A stretch of DNA of 45,541 bases from Caldifarciminota bacterium (GTDB lineage: Bacteria > Hydrothermota > Tepidihabitantia > B3-TA06): the NCBI GenBank assembly GCA_023128825.1, contig JAGMDF010000075.1, positions 1-45,541 on the forward strand, read 5' to 3'. The translations under genes and the position numbers were made by a program. Of this stretch, positions 572 to 45,541 are shown piece by piece; position 1 is the stretch's first letter, and every line of letters starts with the position of its first letter. The notes below the pieces were generated by a model that was given only the letters and a program-made list of their open reading frames with translations, did no database searches and was not told where the DNA came from.

Positions 572-3500
572 TTAACGCAGGAGGAGGAGCTTCTGAACCG
601 CGCTGTAGTCCGGGCTCTGCATCCTTAAGAGGTACACCCCCTGAGGGAGCGCTCGGCCCAGATCGTCCTCGCCGCTCCACAAGACGAAGTGATAGCCCGG
701 CTGAATGCTGCCGTCAACGAACGTACGAACCTTCTGACCGGTAACGTCGTATAGGGCGAGCGAAACCGCGGCCTGGCGTGGCACTGCAAATCGAATAGCG
801 CATCTGCCGCGCAAAGGATTGGGGGCTACCTGAGAAAGCTCGAATACGGTTGGCAAAGCCTCCGCAATACCTGAGGTGCCGCCGATCTTAACCGGCTCCT
901 CCCACTCAGGATTGTGAGTGTCGTTGGATTTGACAAGGACAATCCCCACAGGCGGTCCGGCTTCAACCTTGGAAGCATCACCCATTATCGTTACATACGC
1001 GCTGTCCCGCCCACGAAGGATGAAGGACTTAGGATACAGAGCGTATATCCAGGGCGTCTGTGAAGAGATCTCCTTTACAACCAGATCCCTCATTCCTAAG
1101 TTATAGACCCAGAAGCTGCCCCGCATGGTTTGTCTGTCCACGACAGCGGTATCAGGTTTACAGCAGATATGAGGCGGGGTCTCCTCCACAAGGAGCTTGA
1201 CCGGTTCCAGGGCCGTGGGCTCATCCGGATCGTTGGAGTAAACCCTGATGTAGGCGTTGTAGACACCCTGTCTGAGTTTCTCCGGCGTAACGGTTACGTG
1301 AACGTCATGAGAGCCTGATGGTTCTACGTCAAATGCTGCAGGCGGAGAAACCGAGATCCACTGACGGTTGGGAACGATCCCGGTAACCTCAAGTGTCCGG
1401 TCGCCTTCATTGGCAACGGTAAGGTCATCCTCGGTTTTGTTCCGTGCCTCATTCTCCCAAGAGAAGAAGAAGTGAAGGGTATCCGGTGAGAGCGCTATAT
1501 CCGGCGTACCCATGTTCAGCCGCACGGGCAGCCTGCGTTGTTCCTCGTCAGGATCGTTGGTAGAAAACAGCACACCGCCCTCAAATATCCCGAAGCCAAA
1601 CCCGGCGGTGTCGATCGTAATCGAAACCGAAACGCAGCTCAAGCTGTCACCGGAGGGAATACTCAAGCTGGTCGGGTCTATCTCCTTGATCCAAGGGGTC
1701 GAAGAGGAGATAGAAGAAACCTCAAGCCCTGCACGACCCTCGTTTGTTACATCGCAAGCGATGGTTAGGGAATCGCCCGCCGGCATGTTGAAGACCACGG
1801 TGTCGGGGGTAATCTCTATATCCGGCCAGTCGCCCTTTATCAGCTTCACCGGATGATAAGCGACGGTTCTGTCCGGATCGTTGCTCAAGATGCGGATCCT
1901 GCCCAGATAGATATCGTCCGGGAGTCCTGCGGTGTCCACAAAGAACTCTATCTGGCGATCTTCACCAACCGACACGGTGCAAGCACTGGGGCAGATTGAG
2001 TCGATCCAGGTTGACTGGTAGGACGAGATCTGCGCGACCTGCAGGATGTCGGTGCCTGTGCTGGAGATGGTAAACGAGGAGGAGAGCGATTCTATCTCCG
2101 CATCTAACCAGGTGGTGTCGGGAGAGACAGTCAACTCGGCCCTGCTTACCCCTACCAGGATATTTTTATCTACCCAGCCATAATGATTTGCTCCGGTTAC
2201 CCTAAGTTCCATGAAGCCTGGGGTAGGTGAGATCTCCAGGGCGGCTACACCCGATGCGTCCGTATAAGCCCAGGCATAGACGTTCGGGGACTGCCGAGCG
2301 CAGACAAGCATCCCTCTGACAGGATAACCGGCCTGGGAGCTAACGGTGACGTAAAGGGTCTGTGGGCCTTCCACAACGGGCGGATGGCTGACTATAAACT
2401 CGGACGGCTCACGGGAGTGAACCGGCATGGCAGGATCACCGTGCAGGTTAAGCTCGTAGATGGACCAGCGACCGTACGAAACGTTTCCCCACCCAGCATT
2501 CTCTTCCTTAGCCGTGGCCAACGCCGGGCCGATCTCCGGGTTGTCCAGGCCGTATACCTCCTCGAAGAAGGAGACGTCAAGGCACTCCGAGGGACCACGC
2601 GTAGGAGGAGTGCCCCAACCGTAGCGGGAGTTTCCAACCCACGCGACCGTGCCGCCGTGCTCGGCCCACTGGAAGGCTTCAACCAGACACCCGCCGAACC
2701 CATCGTAGTCAAACGCACCAACAAGACAGGATATCGCAACGTACACGGGCATCCTGTCTGCGTTGGTAAGTGCCCTGGCTTGCCAGTTGTAGAAGGGCGG
2801 CTCACCATTCAAGTGCCCGCAGCAGATGACGATCTCGTTGCCGTGAGCGCAGTGATGAACAAGTCCTACCCCTGCGTTGAGTGAATCCTCTAACCCGTTA
2901 CGGGTAAGCGTACCCTGAGTCTCATACATCCTGGCAATGCTCGTTCCCGGATGCGCCAGGGCGGCGATCGCATCGTTGGTTCCGTCTCCTGAATAAGGAG
3001 GATTACGATCGGGCCAGAGGATCTCCGAAGGCAGCAGCAGCTTGGAGGCAAAACCCTGTGGCGGATTATCCTGATACACCACCACCTTGCCTACAAAAAG
3101 GTCCGCTTCCTGGGCATCATTCACGCATGCCCTGCCCACTGCAACCTCGGCTGAAAGATCAACCCCGTCGTTCATCTCACCGAAGACATTGTTACCGTTG
3201 GCATCCCAATCACCGTCAAGGCAGCCGAAGTACATATCCGTGGGGATGGTATCCTTAGAGCTTCCCGCATAGCTTGCGACAAAGCAATCCCTTGTGGGTA
3301 CAAGCTCTTCGTCGCCGCCGAGCAGAAGATACTCAAGCCCACACTGCTCGTGGGCAAAGATAACGAAGTTGCGAATCTGTTCTGCAAGGTCCCTGCCGGA
3401 AAAGCGTGAGGCAATGCTTTCCAGAGAAACCACGGTGTCGCGAACCCCTCTCGCCGTGTTCCAATCGGCAAGCTTCTGAAACTCACCTCGAAGTAAGGAA

Positions 3501-4204
3501 GGTGTAACTATCGCATGACGATAGCTTTCCTCAGCCGCAGGCTGGAACGTAACCCGTGGGGCCAGGGCTTCGGGATTCTCGACCAGAGCCTTGATCCTGG
3601 CACTAACCATGCGTTGCTGACTTGGGGTGATGCCTGCGGGCTGTATGTAGCCTGGGTCGGGCTCATACCCTACGGTAAGCACCATCCGTTCCGCAAGTTC
3701 CAACTTGCCCTCGGCAGGCGTGTAGCGCAGCGGACGAATCGCTATCAAGGCAACCCTCTCGCCCTCAAGCAATCCCTGGTATAGAACCTGGGCTTCGAAA
3801 TCCGAAACCGGAGTGCTGGAAGCGTAGATTTCCTCACGCGGCCCCACAAACTCGACCCCAGCGGTACTTAACGGTCGGGCGGGCTGAGCAGGATAAAGCG
3901 AGGCTTCTACGTAAGCTGTCTTCACGCTCAAAGCCTCAAGCTTAACATCTGCGACCTTCATCCCTCCGGGAATAAGATAGCGCTTCGTCATAAAAGGCAC
4001 GAGAGGGTAGCCCGGTGGAGCATCGTAGGAGGCTTCCTCGAAAGAAACCAACGTGTACTCTCCGAGCTTCTCTATACTGAGTTCGGTCAAAGGCAGCTCA
4101 AGAACACAGCGAAGCTCCCCGGCCTCAAGCGCCCCGTATGAGAAAACCGTCAACACCAAGCACGCTCCCAAAAGGATTCCGAGGCCGTAAGGCCTTGTCT
4201 TCAT
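572..4204 (-). CDS. Secreted gingipain-family (C25) cysteine peptidase with Ig-like repeats and C-terminal sorting-type domain
   Basis: A 1210-residue protein with an N-terminal signal peptide (MKTRPYGLGILLGACLVLTV). Residues about 30-220 resemble a gingipain propeptide. About 225-530 is the C25 catalytic domain: the segment YLLLGGDEELVPTRD, the probable catalytic His near 454 in HHCAHGNE, and the catalytic Cys near 493 in ISCLVGAFD. Both active-site residues are present. Several repeated Ig/ASH-like units follow (recurring SPDT...SNDPD pattern, about 680-1120). The last 90 residues are a FlgD-like beta sandwich (APNPLRG...GVYLLRM), the kind of C-terminal domain used for export and surface anchoring in FCB-type bacteria. 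It probably acts outside the cell on proteins. It starts 11 nt after the TolB-like gene ends and is probably cotranscribed with it. The substrate and the export machinery cannot be told from this window. Confidence 0.9.
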   Translation of the reverse strand: MKTRPYGLGILLGACLVLTVFSYGALEAGELRCVLELPLTELSIEKLGEYTLVSFEEASYDAPPGYPLVPFMTKRYLIPGGMKVADVKLEALSVKTAYVEASLYPAQPARPLSTAGVEFVGPREEIYASSTPVSDFEAQVLYQGLLEGERVALIAIRPLRYTPAEGKLELAERMVLTVGYEPDPGYIQPAGITPSQQRMVSARIKALVENPEALAPRVTFQPAAEESYRHAIVTPSLLRGEFQKLADWNTARGVRDTVVSLESIASRFSGRDLAEQIRNFVIFAHEQCGLEYLLLGGDEELVPTRDCFVASYAGSSKDTIPTDMYFGCLDGDWDANGNNVFGEMNDGVDLSAEVAVGRACVNDAQEADLFVGKVVVYQDNPPQGFASKLLLPSEILWPDRNPPYSGDGTNDAIAALAHPGTSIARMYETQGTLTRNGLEDSLNAGVGLVHHCAHGNEIVICCGHLNGEPPFYNWQARALTNADRMPVYVAISCLVGAFDYDGFGGCLVEAFQWAEHGGTVAWVGNSRYGWGTPPTRGPSECLDVSFFEEVYGLDNPEIGPALATAKEENAGWGNVSYGRWSIYELNLHGDPAMPVHSREPSEFIVSHPPVVEGPQTLYVTVSSQAGYPVRGMLVCARQSPNVYAWAYTDASGVAALEISPTPGFMELRVTGANHYGWVDKNILVGVSRAELTVSPDTTWLDAEIESLSSSFTISSTGTDILQVAQISSYQSTWIDSICPSACTVSVGEDRQIEFFVDTAGLPDDIYLGRIRILSNDPDRTVAYHPVKLIKGDWPDIEITPDTVVFNMPAGDSLTIACDVTNEGRAGLEVSSISSSTPWIKEIDPTSLSIPSGDSLSCVSVSITIDTAGFGFGIFEGGVLFSTNDPDEEQRRLPVRLNMGTPDIALSPDTLHFFFSWENEARNKTEDDLTVANEGDRTLEVTGIVPNRQWISVSPPAAFDVEPSGSHDVHVTVTPEKLRQGVYNAYIRVYSNDPDEPTALEPVKLLVEETPPHICCKPDTAVVDRQTMRGSFWVYNLGMRDLVVKEISSQTPWIYALYPKSFILRGRDSAYVTIMGDASKVEAGPPVGIVLVKSNDTHNPEWEEPVKIGGTSGIAEALPTVFELSQVAPNPLRGRCAIRFAVPRQAAVSLALYDVTGQKVRTFVDGSIQPGYHFVLWSGEDDLGRALPQGVYLLRMQSPDYSAVQKLLLLR

Positions 4205-9635: not shown

Positions 9636-12497
9636 TTAGTAAAGCACTATCTTCTTGGTAGCACTGAAGCTCGCGGCATCCATACGAACGAGGTAGATGC
9701 CCTGTGCAACGCTGCGTCCGAGATCATCGGTGCCGTTCCACACAACACTGTGGCGACCAGGGGCCTGGTTGCCGCTGACGAGCGTGGTAACGAGCTTACC
9801 GGTGATGTCGTAGACCTTCAGACTGACGTTGACAGTCGCAGGTACCGCAAACGAGATCGTGGTGGAGCCGACGAACGGATTCGGGGTGATCGCCTCTAAA
9901 GCGAACGGCAGACCGGCAGGCGTCTCGGCGATTCCGGTGTTGATGTGGCGGACCTTCGCATCGTCCTTCGGGCAAGCGTCGTCCACGAGCTCGGTGCGGC
10001 AGGTAAGGGTCTGGTGGTGACGATTGGTGAGCACGTCGTAGGTCGGGAAGGTGACGTCTATGGTGTATGGGTCGCCCGTGACGTTGCCGCGCCAGTCGAG
10101 GAAAGTGATGCTCTTCAGGGCATGCCAGAGCTCCACGCTGTTGGAGTCAATGTCGAGAACTACAAGGCGCACCTCGACGTCGTGCTCCGCGTTGAACCCG
10201 AAGTTCTCAACCGTGGCCGTTACCGTGATCTCGCTGCCCTCGTCGTAGTTGTTGGGCTCTTCGTCCGGTTCCTCAGGCCAGGTCATAGCGATCACACCGA
10301 CGTCGTGCGACAAGAGGCAGGTCACGTTGCGGCGAACGGTGTCGTTGTACGGGCAGTGGTCGGAGAGGTCAGGACCGACCTCACCCAGAAGCACGTAGCC
10401 GATCAGCTCGTAGGAGACGAAGGGAAGAGTGTCATCGCAGAGGCCCTCGGGCGTCCACGGCGATGTGGTCCCGTAAGTGGTGTCCCCCATATCAAGGGGT
10501 CCGCTCATCAGCGAGGTCTCGTTGAAGACGGTGTCAGAGGTCGTCTCGTCAACGGCGATGAACCCAACCTTGAAGAAGTCTGCATCGGGTTCGGCCTGAA
10601 GGCCCCTGTTGGCGATCGCGAGCTCAGGGGTGATGGGAACGCCGGCCTCGACGTACTCGCCTGATGGCTCTTCCATGCTGTAAACGGTCAGGTCATGCGG
10701 CTTGTCGTAGTAGCAGGGAGGCTCAGGCATAGGCGAAAAGCCAAGGTGCGTGCAGAGCTCGATCGGATACGTGAAGTAATTGTAGTTGGGGTAGCCGTAG
10801 TACATACCCCAGTGGAAGTTCCAGGATGCGCCGTGATCAGGGGCACTCCAAGTCCCACTGCGGCCCGGACCGGGGCCGAGGTAGCACGACATTGGATCGG
10901 GCCAGGGATTGAGGCCAAGGCCTATCAGGCGGCCGCCCCAGAGGCCGAAGTTGGCGCTGGTATGGGCTGCCCAAATGTTGCCCGGGGTCTCGGCTGGGAC
11001 CCAGATGGGTGCGTCGAAGGTGACCTCGTTCCACTCATACGCAATCCTGGTATCTAAGTTCTTCCATCCCGTATGGTAGGAGCCGTTGGCCACGGCGCCG
11101 CAGCCGTTATTCGCTTCCCAGACCTCGAGCCGCGAGTAGGTGTAGTTCGCCTCAGGACACTCGTAGAGCCATATACGTCCGCCAATCACAGACACGCCGC
11201 CATTTGCGGGGTAGGTAGTAGAAAGACGCCACTGATAGGCACCTATCCAGCCGTAGGCGTCGGCGAAGTTCCAGTGGTAGCCCGACATCCCGTCGCAGCC
11301 CACTTTGCTGATCACTTCCAGGGTGTCGTTGTGCCTGCAGAGGTCGCTATCGAGCATGGAGTACGCAACCTTGCGGTAGGAATGGGTATCAGGCACCGCA
11401 TAGAGCTCGCCAGGAGTCCAGCACGGACCTACGATGGTGTCGGTGGCACCGGGCAGAAGGTCGTTGATGGAGATGCTGAAGTGGTAAACCCGTGAGTCGT
11501 CATCCTCGTCGAAGATATCGATGGTGACCGGGAAGTGCTCGACTTCATTACCGATGTTGCGGACTACCACTATCGGCTGAATCTCGGTCCAGCGAAGTAC
11601 CGTCTCAGCAGGTGAAAGGAAGACGTACGCCTGAACGTCGTGCTGGAAGATCCGCTTGTAGCCGGCACGGATCCTGCGGCCGTTGGCAACGGTGCCCTGG
11701 TAGTATACGCCGTGCTCACCGGATTGGTTCTCGATACCGGTCTCGCCGTTGTCCGCAGTCCAGCCGTGACTCGAGGATTGGTAGAAGAAGTGGATAAAGT
11801 GGTAGGAAAAGACCACGCCGCACGCACCCTCGGAGAGAAGCTTGATCTGCCCACCAAGGGTAAGGGCGAGCTCGAAGTTGTAGGTGTGGTTGTTGAGGTG
11901 ACCCTGTGTATCGTACCACTGGATCCACACCTGCTCCTGCATCCCATCGTACGCGTGGTAAACACGGTTGGTGTCGCTGGGATCCGGGCTTTGGGTCGGA
12001 TTCATGTCCTGCCAGAGCGGTGCAATAACCGCGTTGGGAGCATCGGTAACCGGGAAGGGCGGGATGGCCGACGGAGGAGTGGAGAAGCCGGGCTCCGCGG
12101 CCGGATCGAAGCTGACCCAGCCGTCAGGGGACACGTAGAGTATATCGCCCGGCTTATACCAGCTGCCGTAGTACCAGAAGGAGTCAGGCAGTTGATACTC
12201 GTAGGGCTTGTCGTTGTAGGGAGCCCACGGGTCGCCGGAACTAATGTCCACGAATCCAGGCAACGCAGCCACAGGGGGATCGGAAAACGGAGGGGAGCTG
12301 AGGTTGTCGTACATCCAGTACCAACCGCTTGCCGCGTTAGGTGGGTAGGCCCAGCTTACGCTGCCGCCCTCTACGGGCGTTGTTCCCAAGCCATCAGTAG
12401 CGGGAAGCGCCTCACCTCCATCAACGACTTGCGGAGCCGCAAAGGCCAGCACCGCAAAGCTGAGGATTAGCGCTACCGCGAAAAGCTTTTTACTCAT
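9636..12497 (-). CDS. Large secreted surface protein, paralog 1 of the array
   Basis: 953 residues with a signal peptide (MSKKLFAVALILSFAVLAFA). The start ATG has AAGGAGG upstream. Domain order matches the 929-residue paralog almost throughout: the aromatic-rich N-terminal beta domain, CARDB-like domains, the GPGPGRSGTW segment and further CARDB-like domains. The C-terminal 90 residues differ: here they are a standard FlgD/T9SS-type sandwich (ITPNPFVGSTTISFAV ... GTDDLGRSVAQGIYLVRM) without the cysteine pair. It has its own strong promoter and terminator, so it is a single-gene unit and probably well expressed. Function unknown. Confidence 0.87.
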   Translation of the reverse strand: MSKKLFAVALILSFAVLAFAAPQVVDGGEALPATDGLGTTPVEGGSVSWAYPPNAASGWYWMYDNLSSPPFSDPPVAALPGFVDISSGDPWAPYNDKPYEYQLPDSFWYYGSWYKPGDILYVSPDGWVSFDPAAEPGFSTPPSAIPPFPVTDAPNAVIAPLWQDMNPTQSPDPSDTNRVYHAYDGMQEQVWIQWYDTQGHLNNHTYNFELALTLGGQIKLLSEGACGVVFSYHFIHFFYQSSSHGWTADNGETGIENQSGEHGVYYQGTVANGRRIRAGYKRIFQHDVQAYVFLSPAETVLRWTEIQPIVVVRNIGNEVEHFPVTIDIFDEDDDSRVYHFSISINDLLPGATDTIVGPCWTPGELYAVPDTHSYRKVAYSMLDSDLCRHNDTLEVISKVGCDGMSGYHWNFADAYGWIGAYQWRLSTTYPANGGVSVIGGRIWLYECPEANYTYSRLEVWEANNGCGAVANGSYHTGWKNLDTRIAYEWNEVTFDAPIWVPAETPGNIWAAHTSANFGLWGGRLIGLGLNPWPDPMSCYLGPGPGRSGTWSAPDHGASWNFHWGMYYGYPNYNYFTYPIELCTHLGFSPMPEPPCYYDKPHDLTVYSMEEPSGEYVEAGVPITPELAIANRGLQAEPDADFFKVGFIAVDETTSDTVFNETSLMSGPLDMGDTTYGTTSPWTPEGLCDDTLPFVSYELIGYVLLGEVGPDLSDHCPYNDTVRRNVTCLLSHDVGVIAMTWPEEPDEEPNNYDEGSEITVTATVENFGFNAEHDVEVRLVVLDIDSNSVELWHALKSITFLDWRGNVTGDPYTIDVTFPTYDVLTNRHHQTLTCRTELVDDACPKDDAKVRHINTGIAETPAGLPFALEAITPNPFVGSTTISFAVPATVNVSLKVYDITGKLVTTLVSGNQAPGRHSVVWNGTDDLGRSVAQGIYLVRMDAASFSATKKIVLY

Positions 12498-35724: not shown

Positions 35725-36453
35725 TCAATACTTCTGAGTCGAAGGCTGAACTCTATAGCATTGGATTACAAGCATCTTGGGATTCCGAACGTATGTGAAA
35801 CGGCTATTCCTTAAGTCACACAAATCAGAAAATTTGTACCCTTTTGTAAAGTCGAAGAGGATATAATACCCCCTCCTGAGTCGTGGACGATCGTTAATAT
35901 AATCCACAAGTTGTTTAATACCTACATTTGGGTCAAAGTTCCCGCTGTTCTTCACTTCAACTACGATCTCTACTTTCTTTGCGATTAGTATGTCAACAAA
36001 GCCACGGCCAGAGGGGATTTCTTTGTAGGCATAAATGCCATGACCCTGACAAAACCAAACGATTGAATTAAAGACAAACCCTCGGGTAATGTCTTCCCTT
36101 TGTCGCCCCTTATTCCAGATCAACCGATAGTGGTCTCGTGGAAGTTGGTAGTACAATTTGGTAAAGAAGTCGTCAAATAAACCTTTTAATTCCGACTTAG
36201 CTATCGTGGTTATTTCCTTAAGGTAGGGGTAAACGCCTTCCGCGAATTGTCTCCGACTGATGCCATTTACTAAGAAGAAAGGATTGTTCCCCTGAACTGT
36301 TTTCTCTAAGTTCGCGAGCGTGAGTTTGTTCTCCCGTATTAATCCTGCAACGCTTTCCGCAAATGGAATTTTGAATGCTGAATCCGCCTTTAGGTCATTC
36401 TCTGATAAGTAATCGGTGAGTTTAACTAAGACCTGTCCTACTATATCAACCAT
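35725..36453 (-). CDS. PD-(D/E)XK-type nuclease of a four-gene operon
   Basis: 242 residues. The C-terminal half has a restriction-endonuclease-like core: a Glu near 145, GFVDILI with Asp 154, EIVVEVKN with Glu 166 and Lys 168, then a helix with Gln 181 (GIKQLVDYIN). That is the D...ExK...Q arrangement of Mrr/NERD-like nucleases. The N-terminal half is helical and not recognised. The gene overlaps the preceding wHTH gene by 8 bp and is the last of four. AT-richer than the flanking hslU. I infer a DNA-cleaving effector, probably defence-related; no named system fits. Confidence 0.72.
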   Translation of the reverse strand: MVDIVGQVLVKLTDYLSENDLKADSAFKIPFAESVAGLIRENKLTLANLEKTVQGNNPFFLVNGISRRQFAEGVYPYLKEITTIAKSELKGLFDDFFTKLYYQLPRDHYRLIWNKGRQREDITRGFVFNSIVWFCQGHGIYAYKEIPSGRGFVDILIAKKVEIVVEVKNSGNFDPNVGIKQLVDYINDRPRLRRGYYILFDFTKGYKFSDLCDLRNSRFTYVRNPKMLVIQCYRVQPSTQKY

Positions 36454-36826
36454 TGGCCCCCAAATTAAACTGTGTTTTTAGGTATCGGGAGATTCTTAGA
36501 ATCTTCTCAAACTGGTTTTTAGAGTAAATCGCATTCCTTCCAGATGATCTTCGATCAACCAATCCCTCTTTCCAGAGTAACGAGAGTCCAGAAGAGACAT
36601 CCTGTTTGTGCATATTCAGATCGCTAGTCAATTGGTCAAGAGTTCGTTTCCCGTCCACCGCTAGATAAATCCTTGCCAAGTTTCTGCTATTACCGAAGAC
36701 GGCATAGGCATTTTCGCGGGCTTTTGGAGTTGCGGACAACATGAATCCGAGTTTGTGATTTATTTCTTCCACCCTGGCTCTAATCTCAAGAATCTGATCC
36801 TGAGTTATTCTATCGGGCTCATCCAT
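36446..36826 (-). CDS. Small winged-helix protein, third of a tandem wHTH trio
   Basis: 126 residues; ATG 36826 with GGAGG 7 nt upstream, placed inside the end of the previous gene. N-terminal helix (ITQDQILEIRARVEEINHKL), then an ArsR/MarR-like winged helix: NLARIYLAVDGKRTLDQLTSDLN, recognition helix KQDVSSGLSLLWKEGLV, wing RRSSGRNAIYS. It has the same layout as the two upstream products. Likely DNA-binding or a scaffold; the partner is probably the nuclease encoded next. Confidence 0.7.
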   Translation of the reverse strand: MDEPDRITQDQILEIRARVEEINHKLGFMLSATPKARENAYAVFGNSRNLARIYLAVDGKRTLDQLTSDLNMHKQDVSSGLSLLWKEGLVDRRSSGRNAIYSKNQFEKILRISRYLKTQFNLGANG

Positions 36827-36828
36827 AC

Positions 36829-37176
36829 TTATTCCTCCGCTTTAACCTCTCCCTTGCTGCTGGGAATTTCGGGCACCTCTATTCCCATTTCTTCGAGAGA
36901 GAACACTTTACGTTTCTTACGGCCCTTGAGTTCCTCTATCAGCCCTTGTTGTTCCCAAGCTTTCCACCATCCGGATATCGTAGCAATCGACACTCCAGTC
37001 GCTTCTGCAATTTCCTTAACACCGTTCTTACCATCAGTCATATGGTAAGCTAAAAGCTTTTTCTCGTCGTCAAGAACAGCACGCAACACTTCCTTAACGT
37101 GGGGTATGGCTTGAATCTTAGTCCACTTCAAAATCTCGGCCAAAAGAGCCCGCTCGTCCATGTCTTCATAAGGCAT
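36829..37176 (-). CDS. Small winged-helix protein, second of the trio
   Basis: I start at ATG 37176 (MPYEDMDERALLAEIL), 5 nt after GGAGG, rather than TTG 37188. 115 residues. N-terminal helices with a KLLAYHMTDGK strand-turn, then a helix-turn-helix NGVKEIAEATGVSIATISGWWKAWEQQGLIE and a basic wing KGRKKRK. An acidic tail follows (SSKGEVKAEE). It starts 2 bp after the stop of the first wHTH gene. Confidence 0.7.
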   Translation of the reverse strand: MPYEDMDERALLAEILKWTKIQAIPHVKEVLRAVLDDEKKLLAYHMTDGKNGVKEIAEATGVSIATISGWWKAWEQQGLIEELKGRKKRKVFSLEEMGIEVPEIPSSKGEVKAEE

Positions 37177-37178
37177 TC

Positions 37179-37508
37179 TTACCTCCAATCAATGTCGTAC
37201 CTTTTTACGGCGTTTCCATCTTTTCCATCAATCAGGTTTTCGTCCTTCAACTTCTTGATCAATCGACTGACACCGCTACCAACCATTTCTGTTGCTTCCG
37301 CTATTTGAGTTTGATTTTTTGCCCCATCAAGCATATCGTATACTTTTCGGCGCTTGGGGATGCTAGCTTTAGGGCCTTCCTCTAAAAGTTCCTTGATTCT
37401 CGTTTTTTCACCTTCTATCGCCTTTTGCAAAGCGACCTTATGGACCAGTTTTAAGGTACGATGAAGTTCTCTGACTTCATTTAGGAGTTCTTCGTTTATG
37501 TCAGGCAT
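37179..37508 (-). CDS. Small coiled-coil winged-helix protein, first of the trio
   Basis: I start at ATG 37508 (MPDINEELLNEV), directly after AAGGAGG, instead of 37544. 109 residues. The first 45 residues are heptad-like helix (LLNEVRELHRTLKLVHKV). The C-terminal half is a winged helix: KVYDMLDGAKNQTQIAEATE, recognition helix VGSGVSRLIKKLKDENLIDG. The phrase pattern DG-K-N-x-(T/V)-x-(Q/E)-IAEAT also occurs in the next protein, so the genes appear to be diverged duplicates. Confidence 0.7.
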   Translation of the reverse strand: MPDINEELLNEVRELHRTLKLVHKVALQKAIEGEKTRIKELLEEGPKASIPKRRKVYDMLDGAKNQTQIAEATEMVGSGVSRLIKKLKDENLIDGKDGNAVKRYDIDWR

Positions 37509-37559
37509 AGTTAACCTCCTTGTTAAACATTTGCCATAGTTCACTTACTCACACAATTA

Positions 37560-37914: not shown

Positions 37915-37971
37915 CTTAATTGTGCCGAGTTCGATGTAAACCTGACCGGATTTGCACGGAAAAGGCAGGGC

Positions 37972-38000
37972 TTGACATCGCCCTTGGGGAGGGGTATAGT
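37972..38000 (+). promoter_or_regulatory. Promoter of the MutL-like gene
   Basis: TTGACA, 17-bp spacer, TATAGT. The leader of about 12 nt carries GGAAGG before ATG 38019. Confidence 0.8.
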
Positions 38001-38018: not shown

Positions 38019-40877
38019 ATGGATTTAAGTAAGTGCGAGCACGTGCTTGTCACCGACATCGGCAGCACCACGACCAAGGCGCTGCTGATTACGCGCAAGG
38101 GCGATAAGTACCGCTTCGCCGGTGAGTTAGAGGTTCCCACCACCGTAGAGAAACCTGCAGAAGACGTCAAGATTGGCCTCATCGAGTCGGTGCGGAAGCT
38201 TGAGCAAAAGACCGGCGCCAGGATTCTTGCCGACGGCAGGATAGCTATTCCATATCTGACCACCTCATCGGCGGGCGGCGGGCTTCAGATTTTGGTGTTC
38301 GGGCTATCCGCGGTCGAGACCGGCCGCGCGGCGGAAATGACCGCCTACGGCGCTGGCGGCGTGATTTTGCAAACCTTCACAATAGACGATGCTATCCCGG
38401 CGGTGGACAAGATGCGTCTGATCCGCGAGCTTCACCCTGATTTAATTTTAATGGCCGGCGGTGTTGACGGCGGCGCGATCTCAGGCGTGGTTCGTCTGGC
38501 CGAGTTATTGTCGCTGGCCGACCCTGAGCCGAAGTTCAGGCTATCAGCGCGGATACCGCTTGTCTTCTGCGGCAACGTAAACGCGCGCGGGTTCGTTACC
38601 CGCGTGCTTGAGGATAAGTTCGAGCTGCACGTTACCGACAACATCCGCCCGAACATGAATGAGCTTGCTACCGAGCCGGCCAAGCGCAAGGTGCACGAGC
38701 TGTTCATGAAGAACGTGATGGAGCGCGCCCCTGGCTATGCCGAGCTTAAGAACTGGGTGGCCGCGGACATCATCCCCACACCAGCAGGGGTCGAGAATAT
38801 CTTAAGATTATACGGCGAGAAGCTTAAGGCAAACATCCTTATGGTGGACATGGGCGGCGCGACCACCGACATCTTCTCGAATATAGGCGGAGCCTATCAC
38901 AGGACGGTGGCGGCGAACATCGGGATGAGCTACTCGGTATCGAACATTTTGGCCGAGGCCGGTGTGAAGCGGATAATGCGGCATCTGCCCGACGGGTTCA
39001 CAGAGACCGAGGTGCGCGATTACATCTCAAATAAGATGCTGAACCCGACCTACGTGCCGCGTTTTGCGTGCGAGCGGGTGCTTGAGCAGGCCGCGGCAAT
39101 CGAGGGGATCAGCGTGGCCTGGGAGCAGCACATCGAGATGAACTTCAAGGTCTCGCGGATAGGACGCCTGGATAAAAGGAGATTAAGGAAGGACGTCAAC
39201 AAGTTCGAGGAGCTGTTTTATATGACTGAGTACCGCTACTTCCAGCTCTCGGATATTGATTTGATTATCGGCGCTGGCGGTGTGCTTTCTCACGCTGAGA
39301 GAAAGGAAGAGGTGTTCTGGATGCTTGCCGAGGGGTTCAGGCCTTCGGGGATCACGAAGCTCGCGGTTGACCGCGGGTTCAAGAGCCCGCACCTCGGGGT
39401 TTTGGCAAAGCTGGACGCTGAGGTTGCGCTTGGGCTTTTTGAGGATGAGTGCCTTGAGGAGATCGGCTACGTTGTGGCGCCGGTTGGCAAGCTTCATCCC
39501 AAAAGGCTGGCGCTCACCATCAAGGACAGCCGAGCATCCAAGGCTTACGCGCTGCAGGCCGGGGAGTTTTTGTATCTTCCCCAGGGCGGCGATCTGAAGA
39601 TACTGCTGGAGAAGGGGTTGTGTATTAGCAACAGCCTTGAAAGGTTCGAGTTGAACACCTCGCTTCCCGTGCTTTTCGACTGCCGTGGCAGGGGCGAAAA
39701 GCTGCTGGGCGTGCCGCTTGCCTGCTCAGGGATAGAGGAGTTCTCACAAGCCGCAGGGGTGTTCAAAACAGAGGTAAGGAAAGAAGCGGCTGAGATATCG
39801 GAGGGCACCTACAAAATCCAGCGCCGGCTGCCATACGAGGGCGAGATATTCGTTAGACCCGGCCAGGAGGTAAAGCCCGCTGATATCATAGGCGAGAACC
39901 GGTTCGGCCCGCCAAAGCTCTATATCATCGATATGCAGCGAGTCGTAGGATACGATAAGCCGTTGAGTGAGGAGGATTTCCTCAAAGGAATCAAGGTAAA
40001 GATCGGTGATACGGTCAGACTGGGACAGAACATCTTTCACTTCAAACCCAAAGGCGCATTGCAGATTCCATACAACTGTCAATCTCCCATCAGGGGCATA
40101 GTGACGGGTATCGAGCAAACCAGTAAGATGATAATTTTGCGTGAGATACAGGACTACGACGGCAGGCCTCACGTTGTAGACGTGGCCGGCAAGCTGGACG
40201 TAAAGCCAGGACACATCAAGGCGCACATAAAGTTCCAGGAGGGCGACTTTATCGAGATAGGCCGGATAATTGCCCAAAACACGTCACAAGGCCGATTCCT
40301 GGTGGCAAAGGCCACCTCAACCGGGATGTTAAAAAAGATAAACACTAAGGACGGCACGGTTACGATCCAGTACCACATCACACCCATCACGTTGAAATCG
40401 TTCGTTTCGGGCAAGGTGAGCAGGGTCAAGGAGAACCTGGGCGTCGAGATAACAGGCCAGGGCAGGAGGCTTTACGGCATCATAGGCTTCGGCGGCGAGG
40501 CATCGGGCAGGCTGGCGTTTCTTGATGCCGCCGACGGGCTTGAGGGGTCGCTGAAAGATCGGGTATTGGCGGTGGCAAGCCCGATTGACGATGGGTTCTT
40601 GAGAAAGGCTGCCGAGGTCGGCGTGGCCGGGCTAATCGCGCCCTCGATTCACAACGCCGATTGGGTCCGGTTCTACGGCTCCGAGATCGGGGTGGCGCTG
40701 ACCGGCGACGAGCAGATACCGTTTACGTTGATACTTACCGAGGGATTCGGGCGCTTTGCGATGAACGCGCGCTACCGTAGCTTCTTTGAGGCCTCGGCGG
40801 GCAAGCTGGCAAGCATTTCGGGGCGGACACAGATTCGCGCAGGCGTCACAAGGCCCACGGTCATCGTAAGCGATTGA
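38019..40877 (+). CDS. MutL-like (glutamate mutase accessory) ASKHA ATPase with long C-terminal extension
   Basis: I choose ATG 38019 (MDLSKCEHVLVTDIG), after GGAAGG and the promoter; the track start at 37920 precedes the promoter. 952 residues. The first 470 match the MutL family: phosphate-1 loop TDIGSTTTKALL (near 11), TTSSAGGGLQILVFGL, TPAGVENILRLYG, phosphate-2 loop MVDMGGATTDIFS (near 273) and LIIGAGGVLSHA. The family is thought to use ATP to service B12-dependent mutases. About 480 further residues are unusual: a small barrel with GEIFVRPGQEVKPADIIGE near 607, similar sandwich-barrel stretches, and an end GRTQIRAGVTRPTVIVSD. No mutase subunit gene is nearby. Confidence 0.8.
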   Translation: MDLSKCEHVLVTDIGSTTTKALLITRKGDKYRFAGELEVPTTVEKPAEDVKIGLIESVRKLEQKTGARILADGRIAIPYLTTSSAGGGLQILVFGLSAVETGRAAEMTAYGAGGVILQTFTIDDAIPAVDKMRLIRELHPDLILMAGGVDGGAISGVVRLAELLSLADPEPKFRLSARIPLVFCGNVNARGFVTRVLEDKFELHVTDNIRPNMNELATEPAKRKVHELFMKNVMERAPGYAELKNWVAADIIPTPAGVENILRLYGEKLKANILMVDMGGATTDIFSNIGGAYHRTVAANIGMSYSVSNILAEAGVKRIMRHLPDGFTETEVRDYISNKMLNPTYVPRFACERVLEQAAAIEGISVAWEQHIEMNFKVSRIGRLDKRRLRKDVNKFEELFYMTEYRYFQLSDIDLIIGAGGVLSHAERKEEVFWMLAEGFRPSGITKLAVDRGFKSPHLGVLAKLDAEVALGLFEDECLEEIGYVVAPVGKLHPKRLALTIKDSRASKAYALQAGEFLYLPQGGDLKILLEKGLCISNSLERFELNTSLPVLFDCRGRGEKLLGVPLACSGIEEFSQAAGVFKTEVRKEAAEISEGTYKIQRRLPYEGEIFVRPGQEVKPADIIGENRFGPPKLYIIDMQRVVGYDKPLSEEDFLKGIKVKIGDTVRLGQNIFHFKPKGALQIPYNCQSPIRGIVTGIEQTSKMIILREIQDYDGRPHVVDVAGKLDVKPGHIKAHIKFQEGDFIEIGRIIAQNTSQGRFLVAKATSTGMLKKINTKDGTVTIQYHITPITLKSFVSGKVSRVKENLGVEITGQGRRLYGIIGFGGEASGRLAFLDAADGLEGSLKDRVLAVASPIDDGFLRKAAEVGVAGLIAPSIHNADWVRFYGSEIGVALTGDEQIPFTLILTEGFGRFAMNARYRSFFEASAGKLASISGRTQIRAGVTRPTVIVSD

Positions 40878-41735: not shown

Positions 41736-42713
41736 CTACTGTTCGGTTTCTTCGATAACTTTGACTAAATCCTTCTCAGTAATCTGAACTGTTTTAAGTT
41801 TTCCCTCCTTGGAAGCAGTCGCCTCAATGGGATAAATATCTATTGTGAGCATGAAAATGGTTTTTCCGTTATAAACCACGAAGGGCGTTGATTGTTCTTG
41901 GTGGGATAAAACCAACTTTAAATCAGAATTAGATGTGTTGAAAATAATCAAGTACCCAAACGGTTCACTGTAATCTCTAGTATATCGATATATCTGAGTG
42001 AAACCCTTGGCGATGTAGCTTTTTTTATTTGGAGCGTTGAAAATCTTAACATCTGCTATCAACGGATCATCGCTCTTCTGGGCAGCAACCAAATCAGCTT
42101 CTCCAGATATAGACTGCGGTTCTATTGAAAAATCCAGACCTTGGTCATGCAAGTATTCGTAAAGATGCATCGCTAGAAGTCTCTCCCCCTTCTGAGTATT
42201 GTTCTTCCATAATTCAAACAGTTTGTCCCGTTGAAACCACTCGCACTTATGCTTGTACTTTCTTAAGAGTGCCAGGATTGCGCGTTGGTCATCAAGTTGT
42301 TCGTCAAGATAATCATATAGGGGTTCCACAAAAAGGGACTTGAAAAGGTCTGAGGCGTTAGAAAGTGAGTTTTCTAAAGAGTATATTAAACCTGCATTTA
42401 TTTCTGAATCTTTCGAAGACCTCTCGATACACCCTTTTAAAACAAGATATGATAACGCCACTAGCCCTTTCTCATCTTCTGGGTAGAACGGACCAGAAAG
42501 ATTGCCTGTGGGTATATTAATAGCAGGCCCTTGTATCTCTTCAGGTATATTATGTTCAATTTTCTCTAGAATTCCAAGAAAAATGGAGTTGCTGTTGATG
42601 TAGCCCCAGAATTGTTGGACAACTGCATGAAGTACTTGAGAGTCAGCACCATTAACCCTGCGCATCCGTTTTTGTAGCTTGTATCGCAAATTCTGTACAT
42701 AGTTTGGATCCAT
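41736..42713 (-). CDS. PD-(D/E)XK-type protein of a two-gene cassette
   Basis: 325 residues; ATG 42713 with AGGAGG overlapping the stop of the zinc-ribbon gene, so translation is probably coupled. Residues 1-190 are helical and not recognised. The C-terminal part has SGEADLVAAQKSDDPLIADVKIF (E205, D207, D221, K223) and a helix with Gln 240 (KGFTQIYRYTRDY), an arrangement matching restriction-endonuclease-like folds, followed by strands (FGYLIIFNTSN). AT-rich like its partner, next to a type IIG system. I infer a nuclease effector; substrate unknown. Confidence 0.68.
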   Translation of the reverse strand: MDPNYVQNLRYKLQKRMRRVNGADSQVLHAVVQQFWGYINSNSIFLGILEKIEHNIPEEIQGPAINIPTGNLSGPFYPEDEKGLVALSYLVLKGCIERSSKDSEINAGLIYSLENSLSNASDLFKSLFVEPLYDYLDEQLDDQRAILALLRKYKHKCEWFQRDKLFELWKNNTQKGERLLAMHLYEYLHDQGLDFSIEPQSISGEADLVAAQKSDDPLIADVKIFNAPNKKSYIAKGFTQIYRYTRDYSEPFGYLIIFNTSNSDLKLVLSHQEQSTPFVVYNGKTIFMLTIDIYPIEATASKEGKLKTVQITEKDLVKVIEETEQ

Positions 42714-42721
42714 AAACCCTC

Positions 42722-42952
42722 CTAGAAGTTTATGCTTATTTCAAAATTTTTGGTTAGATTCTTTATGGCTTCCCTTACCCTTCTACTTTCCTTTCGATAT
42801 TCGTTCAAGTAATCATCCAGTTGGATATTTGATTTACATCCTCTACAGATAACAACATCCCTGACTTTTACTTGCTTGAGGAATATATCATTGTAGAAGC
42901 CACATCGAGGACATGGCACATCAATGGATAATCTATCCAAACTAAACATCAT
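42722..42952 (-). CDS. Small zinc-ribbon protein
   Basis: 76 residues. Two CxxC knuckles, VPCPRCGFYND and VICRGCKSNIQLDDYL, make a four-cysteine zinc ribbon, followed by a basic helical tail (EYRKESRRVREAIKNL). Likely a nucleic-acid-binding or adaptor subunit for the nuclease-like protein encoded 8 bp downstream. Promoter is weak or unusual: TTGACA at 42993-42988 with TGACTT 16 bp further. Confidence 0.65.
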   Translation of the reverse strand: MMFSLDRLSIDVPCPRCGFYNDIFLKQVKVRDVVICRGCKSNIQLDDYLNEYRKESRRVREAIKNLTKNFEISINF

Positions 42953-42965
42953 CTTTCCAATTAAG

Positions 42966-42993
42966 AAGTCATCCTAAACCACATTCTTGTCAA
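42966..42993 (-). promoter_or_regulatory. Possible promoter of the zinc-ribbon/nuclease pair
   Basis: Minus strand TTGACA, 16-bp spacer, TGACTT. The -35 box is good; the -10 box departs from the TANNNT seen elsewhere. Confidence 0.35.
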
Positions 42994-43002
42994 CTCCCTC
43001 CC

Positions 43003-43066
43003 GTGGAGCGCGGGTTCTCTAACCCGCGCAAATATTATTGAACGGACTGGAGAGTCCGTTCTCCAT
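43003..43066. repeat. Hairpin repeat GTGGAGCGCGGGTT, copy 2, without insert
   Basis: GCGCGGGTT-CTCT-AACCCGCGC, AAATATTATTGAACGGACTGGAGAGTCCGTTCTCCAT. It ends 4 bp from the stop codon of the type IIG gene. Confidence 0.8.
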
Positions 43067-43070
43067 ACCC

Positions 43071-45541
43071 TCATTTCACCCCCTCCACTATCTTAATCTC
43101 CTCCTCGCTCAGGTCGTAGAGCTCGTACACCAGCTTATCAATCTCCGAGTTGGTGTAGTCAATCTGGCGTTGCAGGCGTTTCTTGGTATCCGGGACTTTG
43201 GCTTGGGCCAGCTTTTTGTTCAAATCAAGCATCCGCTCCACCAGCTTTACCATCGTGTCGTGGCGCTTCTTATCCTCAGGGTCGTCAAAGTCAATGGTGC
43301 GAATGGGGAGGGGTTTTAGGTTTACGACCTTTACTTGTGCAAAGGTTCTTCCACTTTCCTTTACACGTTCGACATATAGGAAATTCAGCAACTTAGAATT
43401 GTATATTCCGAGGAAATATTTGAGTGAGAATAAAGGCTCCTTCAAATGAATAACATGAGTGCTATCTAAAGTCAGGTATTTCTCTGTGTCTATTGTAGCT
43501 CGTAACCGATCACTTGTTTGGCGACTTATCAACTTTCCTGAAACCTTAAACATTTGGGGATTAGTATTACTCCAGAGCTTTTCAGGTGCATAGAATACAT
43601 AATGACCGCCGAACTCTAAAAAATATCGGTCTATATCGCGCCCTCGGATTACTTTTTCCCACTTCTTACCTGTTGGTGTAGTCGAAAGAAACTGTTTGTT
43701 ATCCCCAGTGATTATACCTTGATAGACGGTGCAAATGCTACCTAAAGGAACACATGGTTTTTGCTTAATTCTATCGAGCAATGCTATAACTTTGGGGTTC
43801 ATTAGAAGGTTAAACTGGGGGGCTTTTAAGAATATTTCTCTGTTGGCGATGGTTGTTTCGGGAGTATTAAACACCTGATATGAATTTGCAGTTTCAACAA
43901 CTGCCTTCCGAATCCTCTTATTCGGTGTAAAGACAAAAATGCCACTTCCACCTAGCTCTGCTTTCGGGAATACTTTGTATCTCAGATCCACAATTCTAGA
44001 AAGACTACCTTCTTCTATCATTAACTTCCTGAGGTCTTGGAAATAAAAACTAGTAAAGAATAAATTAGGGATGATAAAAGAAAACTCTCCCTTGGGTGTA
44101 AGCAGCTTGATACATTTTTCCATAAATAATCCGAAGAGGTTCATTTTATACTGAGCCGCATGTGGATATTTATTGCTGTAATATGAGATTATCTCTTTGT
44201 CTTCAGATTCCTGTTTTCTTCCGAGGAGTAAGCTCCGGTACGGCGGATTCCCTATCACTGCGTCGAAGCCGCCCGCATCCATGATGTCCTTGAACTCAAC
44301 CTCCCAGTCAAAGGCGTTGATGCGGTACTGCGCCTCATCGTCGAACATGTCGGCCTGCTTACCTTGGTAGAAATCCAAGCCGATCAGCGAGTTGCCGCAC
44401 TTTATGTTCGAGCCCAGGTCGGGCAGCGCCCGCTGGTGGAATATCGCAAGCTGGCGCTTCAACGTCTCCTCACTCTCGCCCTCCAGCACCTTTAAGAGCA
44501 GCGAAAGCTTGGTGACCTCCACCGCCTGCAGGTCTATGTCCACCCCGTAGATGTTATTTAATAGTATCCGCTTGCGCTCCTCGGTCGAAAGCCGCCACTC
44601 CCGCTCCGTTACCTGATAAAGCTGCTTGCGGTGCTTTTCCGGCCCATCTTCGATGTAGTAGTCGCGGTGCCAGTCCAAAAGATACTGGTAAGCACCCAAA
44701 AGGAACGACCCCGACCCGCACGCCGGGTCAAGTATCCTGAGCTTTGCCGCCTGAGCAGGCGTCTTGCCCTTGCACAGCTTGCCCACCGTGTTGGAAACGA
44801 TATAGTCAACTATGTAGGTTGGAGTGTAGTAGACCCCGCCCGCCTTGCGAACCTCAGGCTTTTCTTCAACCTTTGCATAGTGCGCCTTAGTAAGCCGGAT
44901 GACCTTGCCCAGGAACTGCTCGTACACCTGGCCCAGGATGTCGGCAGGCAGAACCGAGAACTCGTAAGGGCTGTCCGGGTAGTAAATGTCCTTGATGATG
45001 CGCTTGAGCTTGTCGTTATCTATTGTAAGATTCAGGGTGAGATCATCGGGCGGCTCTTCCCTGCCCTTCTCTTTCTTGAAGTGGAACAGCCCGGAGTTGT
45101 AGCGGTCGTCGGCATCGCGGAATAACTGGGTGAGACGCTTGTAGATATTAGCTCCGTTCATGATTGACTGGAGCCTTCCATACCCCTCGATTCCCCGGTC
45201 CTCGCAGATTCGCAGGAAGATGATACGGTCAATGGTCTTCTGTACAGCGAAGTTCAGTTGACGGGTGGAGAGCTTGGGATTACGGAGGGCGATGTTCCGG
45301 GCAAGCTCGTCGCGCCACTGCTCTATCTCGGCCAGGAAAGCATCGTCTACCTCGGCGGTGCCTCGCTTCAGTTTGGTCGATTCAACATATTTGTCGAACG
45401 AACCCTTGAGCACCGCATCCTTGGAGAAGATGGAGGCGATTTCATCCCAGCGGTCGATGTAGTCCTTGTATTCGATATAGAGGATACGGGCTGTTGACGC
45501 CTTGTCGGTCTGCACCGGCTTGATGCGACAGTCGTAGACCG
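43071..45541 (-). CDS. Eco57I-like type IIG restriction-modification protein, N-terminus beyond window
   Basis: At least 822 residues. The frame is open to the right edge (…VYDCRIKPVQTDKASTAR), and the family has an N-terminal nuclease domain there, so the GTG at 45515 in the track is not the start. Counting from it: helical region to about 220, motif X GGVYYTPTYIVDYIV near 227, SAM motif I LDPACGSGSFLLGAY near 262, NIYGVDIDLQAVEVTKLSL, catalytic motif IV GNPPY near 425, then a target-recognition region (about 560-760, TVYQGIITGDNKQFL, VIRGRDIDRYF) and a helical tail ending YELYDLSEEEIKIVEGVK. It methylates adenine N6 and presumably cuts DNA with the missing N-terminal domain. The 5' two thirds are GC-rich and the recognition region AT-richer, suggesting an exchanged specificity segment. 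Confidence 0.9.
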   Translation of the reverse strand, partial: VYDCRIKPVQTDKASTARILYIEYKDYIDRWDEIASIFSKDAVLKGSFDKYVESTKLKRGTAEVDDAFLAEIEQWRDELARNIALRNPKLSTRQLNFAVQKTIDRIIFLRICEDRGIEGYGRLQSIMNGANIYKRLTQLFRDADDRYNSGLFHFKKEKGREEPPDDLTLNLTIDNDKLKRIIKDIYYPDSPYEFSVLPADILGQVYEQFLGKVIRLTKAHYAKVEEKPEVRKAGGVYYTPTYIVDYIVSNTVGKLCKGKTPAQAAKLRILDPACGSGSFLLGAYQYLLDWHRDYYIEDGPEKHRKQLYQVTEREWRLSTEERKRILLNNIYGVDIDLQAVEVTKLSLLLKVLEGESEETLKRQLAIFHQRALPDLGSNIKCGNSLIGLDFYQGKQADMFDDEAQYRINAFDWEVEFKDIMDAGGFDAVIGNPPYRSLLLGRKQESEDKEIISYYSNKYPHAAQYKMNLFGLFMEKCIKLLTPKGEFSFIIPNLFFTSFYFQDLRKLMIEEGSLSRIVDLRYKVFPKAELGGSGIFVFTPNKRIRKAVVETANSYQVFNTPETTIANREIFLKAPQFNLLMNPKVIALLDRIKQKPCVPLGSICTVYQGIITGDNKQFLSTTPTGKKWEKVIRGRDIDRYFLEFGGHYVFYAPEKLWSNTNPQMFKVSGKLISRQTSDRLRATIDTEKYLTLDSTHVIHLKEPLFSLKYFLGIYNSKLLNFLYVERVKESGRTFAQVKVVNLKPLPIRTIDFDDPEDKKRHDTMVKLVERMLDLNKKLAQAKVPDTKKRLQRQIDYTNSEIDKLVYELYDLSEEEIKIVEGVK

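Follow-up and report, generated by a model that had tools for sequence, protein, structure and literature searches.

A GlmL/MutL-type ATPase fused to a putative partner subunit in a relative of Candidatus Stahlbacteria

The fused gene and its surroundings

The stretch of DNA analyzed here (the window; 45,541 nucleotides) belongs to a genome related to Candidatus Stahlbacteria (WOR-3) assemblies. A single open frame at 38019..40877 on the forward strand encodes a fused protein of 952 amino acids (A), which consists of a MutL-type ATPase, a linker, and a second half of the type found in a separate protein, here termed C. The original prediction described a MutL-like ATPase of twice the usual length, and this is borne out by comparison with the canonical GlmL of Peptoclostridium, which has 461 amino acids.

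The gene is preceded by a candidate sigma-70-type promoter of near-consensus sequence (TTGACA-17-TATAGT; 37972..38000, forward strand), recognized by consensus match only. It agrees with the consensus at 11 of 12 positions, and the ATG at 38019 follows 18 bases behind it. At a looser threshold, seven promoter-like sites were found between 37500 and 41800, compared with 3.1 expected in shuffled sequences. An alternative, longer ORF with a TTG start at 37920 opens upstream of the candidate promoter. The ATG at 38019 is thus well supported as the start, as the promoter lies directly upstream of it and the longer ORF begins before the promoter. The position of the promoter suggests that the fused gene forms its own transcription unit, and no conserved operon partner was found in the loci read.

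Three consecutive small winged-helix/HTH proteins are encoded upstream of the fused gene on the opposite strand (36446-37544). Downstream, also on the opposite strand (41736-45515), are an Eco57I-type methylase gene (43071-45515) and a 325-aa ORF. Other restriction- or defence-like genes, recognized by N-terminal sequence alone, seem to lie near the copies in three related genomes (G001, G002 and G007; loci L028, L029 and L030), so insertions may be frequent at this site. Elsewhere in the window, a gene on the reverse strand (572-4204) encodes a protein of 1210 amino acids that combines a gingipain-like Peptidase_C25 domain with an Ig domain of the FlgD type, and further FlgD_ig proteins follow up to position 12497.

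The fused gene is present in six other genomes of the eight-member family to which the window's genome belongs (f1). In four comparisons, dN/dS was 0.17-0.25 for residues 596-952 compared with 0.05-0.18 for the ATPase domain. The extension is therefore maintained, with ratios not far from those of the ATPase domain, and the occurrence of the gene in six further genomes together with these ratios rules out an assembly error or a pseudogene.

The ATPase domain occupies residues 9-477 (38043..39449, forward strand) and matches the Pfam MutL model PF13941 over profile positions 1-449 of 450 (E 1.9e-95; 320.8 bits against a cut-off of 27). In alignment with GlmL, we identified the phosphate-1 motif DIGSTTTK (residues 13-20; 38055..38078, forward strand), the phosphate-2 motif DMGGATTDIF (residues 277-286, with DMGGATTD at 277-284; 38847..38876, forward strand), and the adenosine motif GAGGVLSH (residues 418-425, with GAGG at 418-421; 39270..39293, forward strand). 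All three ASKHA motifs are intact, and their positions match those in Peptoclostridium GlmL. The domain is complete, as had been proposed; by its motifs it is a member of the ASKHA ATPases, and ATP hydrolysis is predicted. The protein matches but does not reach the NCBIfam cut-offs for GlmL and the GlmL subfamily, scoring 190.4 bits against 475 for NF040745 and 139.9 against 204.05 for TIGR01319, or that for Or-4, the GlmL-like protein of the ornithine pathway (NF040744; 191.6 against 600 bits). The fused protein thus shares with GlmL, the accessory protein of methylaspartate/glutamate mutase, the whole ASKHA domain and the ATPase motifs. However, GlmL lacks both the linker domain and the partner half. 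The gene contexts also differ. In Peptoclostridium, which served as a positive control for gene neighborhood, GlmL sits between glmS and glmE, whereas neither of these genes nor any other mutase gene occurs near the fused gene in the window, in agreement with the initial observation that no mutase is nearby.

The extension and its stand-alone homolog

About 475 residues follow the ATPase domain. The first of these form a linker domain of about 118 residues (478-595; 39450..39803, forward strand) that is missing from the canonical 461-aa GlmL and is common to the MutL proteins of about 600 amino acids found in this phylum. The roughly 480 extra residues noted at the outset are therefore present, but only about 357 of them are a genuine addition, as the linker also occurs in the ordinary MutL of the phylum.

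The addition consists of three parts with approximate borders. A first barrel-sandwich-hybrid-like unit, similar to RnfC_N and NqrA_N, spans residues 596-712 (39804..40154, forward strand) and includes GEIFVRPGQEVKPADIIGE at residues 608-626. A second barrel-sandwich-like unit was delimited from alignments at residues 713-788 (40155..40382, forward strand). The remainder, residues 789-952 (40383..40874, forward strand), is a beta segment plus an alpha/beta domain homologous to C and ending in TQIRAGVTRP..VIVSD. Among 20 members of the extension/C family, the Pfam models matched most often are RnfC_N, Biotin_lipoyl and NQRA_N, for the most part weakly, which agrees with the barrel-like segments proposed originally. 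RnfC_N is matched in 15 of the 20 at E values up to 1, the best being 5.5e-7; for the extension in the window itself, the match is to NQRA_N and falls short of the curated cut-off. When the family profile was compared with the N-terminal domain of E. coli RsxC/RnfC, hhalign gave probabilities of 64-86, compared with 0.5 or less for unrelated E. coli proteins and 5-7 for GcvH. The barrel-sandwich module of the extension thus appears to resemble RnfC/NqrA. The resemblance is confined to the N-terminal barrel-sandwich-hybrid domain; the nucleotide-binding and further domains of RnfC and NqrA are without a match. Structure prediction of residues 470-952 from a three-row alignment (the window, L026 and L027), a depth that is too low, gave a pLDDT of 31.

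A whole-protein search of the eight f1 genomes returned three types of match. Long relatives share 60-88% identity with the window's protein. Stand-alone MutL proteins (B) of about 600-630 amino acids align to residues ~1-562 with 38% identity. The third type is a separate small protein, the stand-alone C of about 373-378 amino acids, which shares 36% identity over residues 715-950 (E 4e-36). A profile built from C matches the extension with an E value of 4.5e-45, and the homology covers the barrel, the beta segment and the alpha/beta domain. As C aligns to the extension and B to the first 562 residues, the fused protein corresponds to B and C in one chain. The layouts of C and the extension are not identical. 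C consists of one barrel unit, the beta segment, the alpha/beta domain and a KOW-like tail, whereas the fusion carries a second barrel-like unit and lacks the tail.

No Pfam, NCBIfam or PDB family matches C above cut-off, and a PDB search with the C profile gave chance-level matches only. We found no relative of the fused protein or of C in viral contigs; plasmids contain only canonical GlmL-type matches and no homolog of C. Literature searches for MutL or C in WOR-3 returned nothing, and the main text of two papers on WOR-3 contains no mention of a mutase or of cobalamin.

Distribution across the phylum and origin of the fusion

We surveyed 147 genomes of the candidate phylum WOR-3/Stahlbacteria. 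The whole-protein query (P0001) detects MutL and/or C and was matched in 142 of these, and the C profile was matched in 139. Since P0001 spans both halves, the presence of MutL was counted from matches to the MutL region alone. Ten genomes gave no match to MutL, eight none to C, and five none to either; among genomes at least 90% complete these numbers are four, four and three. As separate genes, MutL and C are near-universal in this phylum. C is missing from 5 of the 10 genomes without MutL compared with 3 of the 137 with it (p 2e-5), an association confounded by assembly gaps because the two genes are often neighbors. The clearest loss is in G126 and G127, two genomes of one genus that are about 95% complete and lack MutL, C and a further small protein, D.

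D is a protein of ~110-115 amino acids with the core 'FLESVKPLSFLGSQ'. It is found in 133 of the 147 genomes, mostly between gcvPB and MutL (for example L076:1525-1866 and L083:8065-8385, among others), and has no NCBIfam match above cut-off. MutL adjoins D in 82 of the 124 genomes that have both, and gcvPB in 75 of 101. Across many families the genes typically run gcvPB, D, MutL, with C next in line if it is a neighbor. In 28 genomes no more than 1.5 kb separates MutL from C, and in nine genomes that were read the gap ranges from -1 to ~120 bases. A single in-frame stop separates MutL and C in the same frame in four genomes (G122, G133, G134 and G011); those in G133, G134 and G011 are read as adjacent separate genes and not as fusions. 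In the window's genome the core MutL (L040:3-1133, contig G000:C60) is cut by a contig edge, so the missing gcvPB and D probably reflect an assembly gap. The stand-alone C of f1 is followed by a PorV-like (type IX secretion) protein (L036:11125-12141) and then accA.

A second, diverged and paralogous MutL-C pair occurs in five families (f13, f30, f33, f34 and f37) in overlapping frames, the overlap being 8 bases in three genomes. Fused copies are found in f1 and in seven genomes of a second family, f10. Trees of the MutL and C halves agree on four groups: the core pair, the split pair, the fused copies of f1 and the fused copies of f10. Single and double origins of the fusion in f1 and f10 were compared by the AU test, with a p value of 0.36. 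Most genomes with a fused copy also keep a separate MutL-C pair, and the fusion is therefore an additional paralogue. In G004, from the same genus as the window's genome, the separate pair is present and no fused copy was found.

Client enzymes and proposed function

MutL has been described as a chaperone in the reactivation of glutamate mutase (PMC4682846). Glutamate mutase E (PF06368) is found above cut-off in none of the 147 genomes, and methylmalonyl-CoA mutase (MCM) is present in 102 of 147, yet all eight genomes of f1 lack it. The 16 matches to the B12-binding domain in f1 fall into two sets, nine radical-SAM proteins of the B12-binding type and seven IMP dehydrogenases, the latter being false matches; ten of the 16 were identified by Pfam scan and six by near-identical N-termini. 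As both mutases are missing from its family, neither glutamate mutase nor MCM is the client of the window's fused paralogue. None of the known C-terminal domains of the MutL family corresponds to the extension, and the relatives that were read have no mutase next to the gene. Of the interpretation offered originally, the additional module is confirmed and a job other than classical mutase repair is probable, while the suggestion that the module is carrier-like or binds nucleic acid finds no support: alignments read by eye revealed no lipoyl or biotin consensus around a lysine at the hairpin (e.g. MKM or ES-K), and the sole hint of nucleic-acid binding lies in a part of C that the fusion lacks.

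A two-subunit precedent exists in the diol dehydratase reactivase DdrA/DdrB, in which an ASKHA-type ATPase acts on its client enzyme together with a second subunit. We consider it reasonably probable that the product of the fused gene is a two-subunit, ATP-driven chaperone or reactivase condensed into one chain, with C as the partner subunit. The N-terminal GlmL/MutL-type half would open and close with ATP binding and hydrolysis, and the C half would dock on the client enzyme. The ATP cycle might then strip or re-seat a subunit or cofactor of the client, as is thought for the two-subunit diol dehydratase reactivase, and the fusion would fix the two subunits at a 1:1 ratio. The parallel with DdrA/DdrB and EutA is an inferred one; these proteins belong to different families, and the partner half in the window is RnfC/NqrA-like.

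Among possible clients of the core pair, glycine decarboxylase is the best candidate by position, with gcvPB just upstream, although our confidence in any specific client is low. A more detailed proposal is that the pair acts on glycine cleavage, with the barrel of C imitating the lipoyl H-protein and docking on GcvPA/PB while the ATPase frees the stalled enzyme. The conserved order gcvPB, D, MutL in a wide range of families, and the position of C immediately after MutL in 28 genomes, are consistent with this proposal, and barrel-sandwich folds would be common to the H-protein and C. However, the extension is closer to RnfC than to GcvH by hhalign, and the linkage to gcvPB may only reflect a shared housekeeping operon and gives no direct information on the fused copy in the window, which is unlinked. 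In addition, G126 retains gcvPB although it lacks MutL, C and D, and the system is therefore not strictly required for glycine decarboxylase. On balance we regard this proposal as not very likely. We also think it unlikely that the protein is a repair factor for another adenosylcobalamin enzyme, most plausibly the class II ribonucleotide reductase NrdJ. GlmL is itself linked to an adenosylcobalamin enzyme, and NrdJ is the one such enzyme found in f1, where it occurs in all eight genomes including that of the window. However, many genomes with MutL have no NrdJ match (e.g. much of f5), and three genomes that are 92-95% complete (G064, G025 and G026) have MutL and C while NrdJ, MCM and glutamate mutase E were not detected and B12-binding matches are weak only. 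Among the f10 genomes with a fused copy, NrdJ matches are absent (G103, G105 and G120) or weak only, and no gene linkage was seen.

The frequency of RnfC_N and NQRA_N among the Pfam matches and the hhalign similarity to E. coli RsxC would fit an extension that serves electron transfer or an Rnf/Nqr-type complex, with the ATPase as activator of a redox enzyme. This appears improbable, as the barrel is the sole part shared with RnfC and the distribution of RnfC across the phylum does not follow that of MutL: in many genomes that carry MutL and C (e.g. f19 and f21) no true RnfC was found, yet G126, G127 and G142, in which neither MutL nor C was found, do have it. A nucleic-acid or ribosome-related function is the most doubtful of these alternatives. 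The KOW-like tail that terminates the stand-alone C (one member matches Pfam KOW, E 0.0019) points in this direction, but the case is weakened because all the fused and split paralogues that were inspected lack this tail, and we found no further domain that binds nucleic acid.

To return to the chaperone or reactivase that we favor, a broader version can be put forward tentatively. MutL and C together might be a novel type of ATP-driven enzyme chaperone that is built from two subunits and belongs to the core equipment of the whole phylum, and whose client is not a B12 mutase and is possibly glycine decarboxylase, and the protein in the window might be a specialized one-chain copy with a client of its own.

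In short, the window holds a GlmL-type ATPase joined to an unnamed partner that occurs almost throughout the phylum. Relatives of this protein are labelled 'glutamate mutase L', a name that implies a pathway with a B12 mutase, which is lacking in these genomes. The fusion indicates what the missing partner subunit may be and opens the question to experiment, as it supplies one fused chain, or two short genes that can be co-expressed, together with a shortlist of clients. Should C prove to be the partner, this ATPase family would be a two-part machine in a hardly cultured phylum, with a role beyond B12 mutases.
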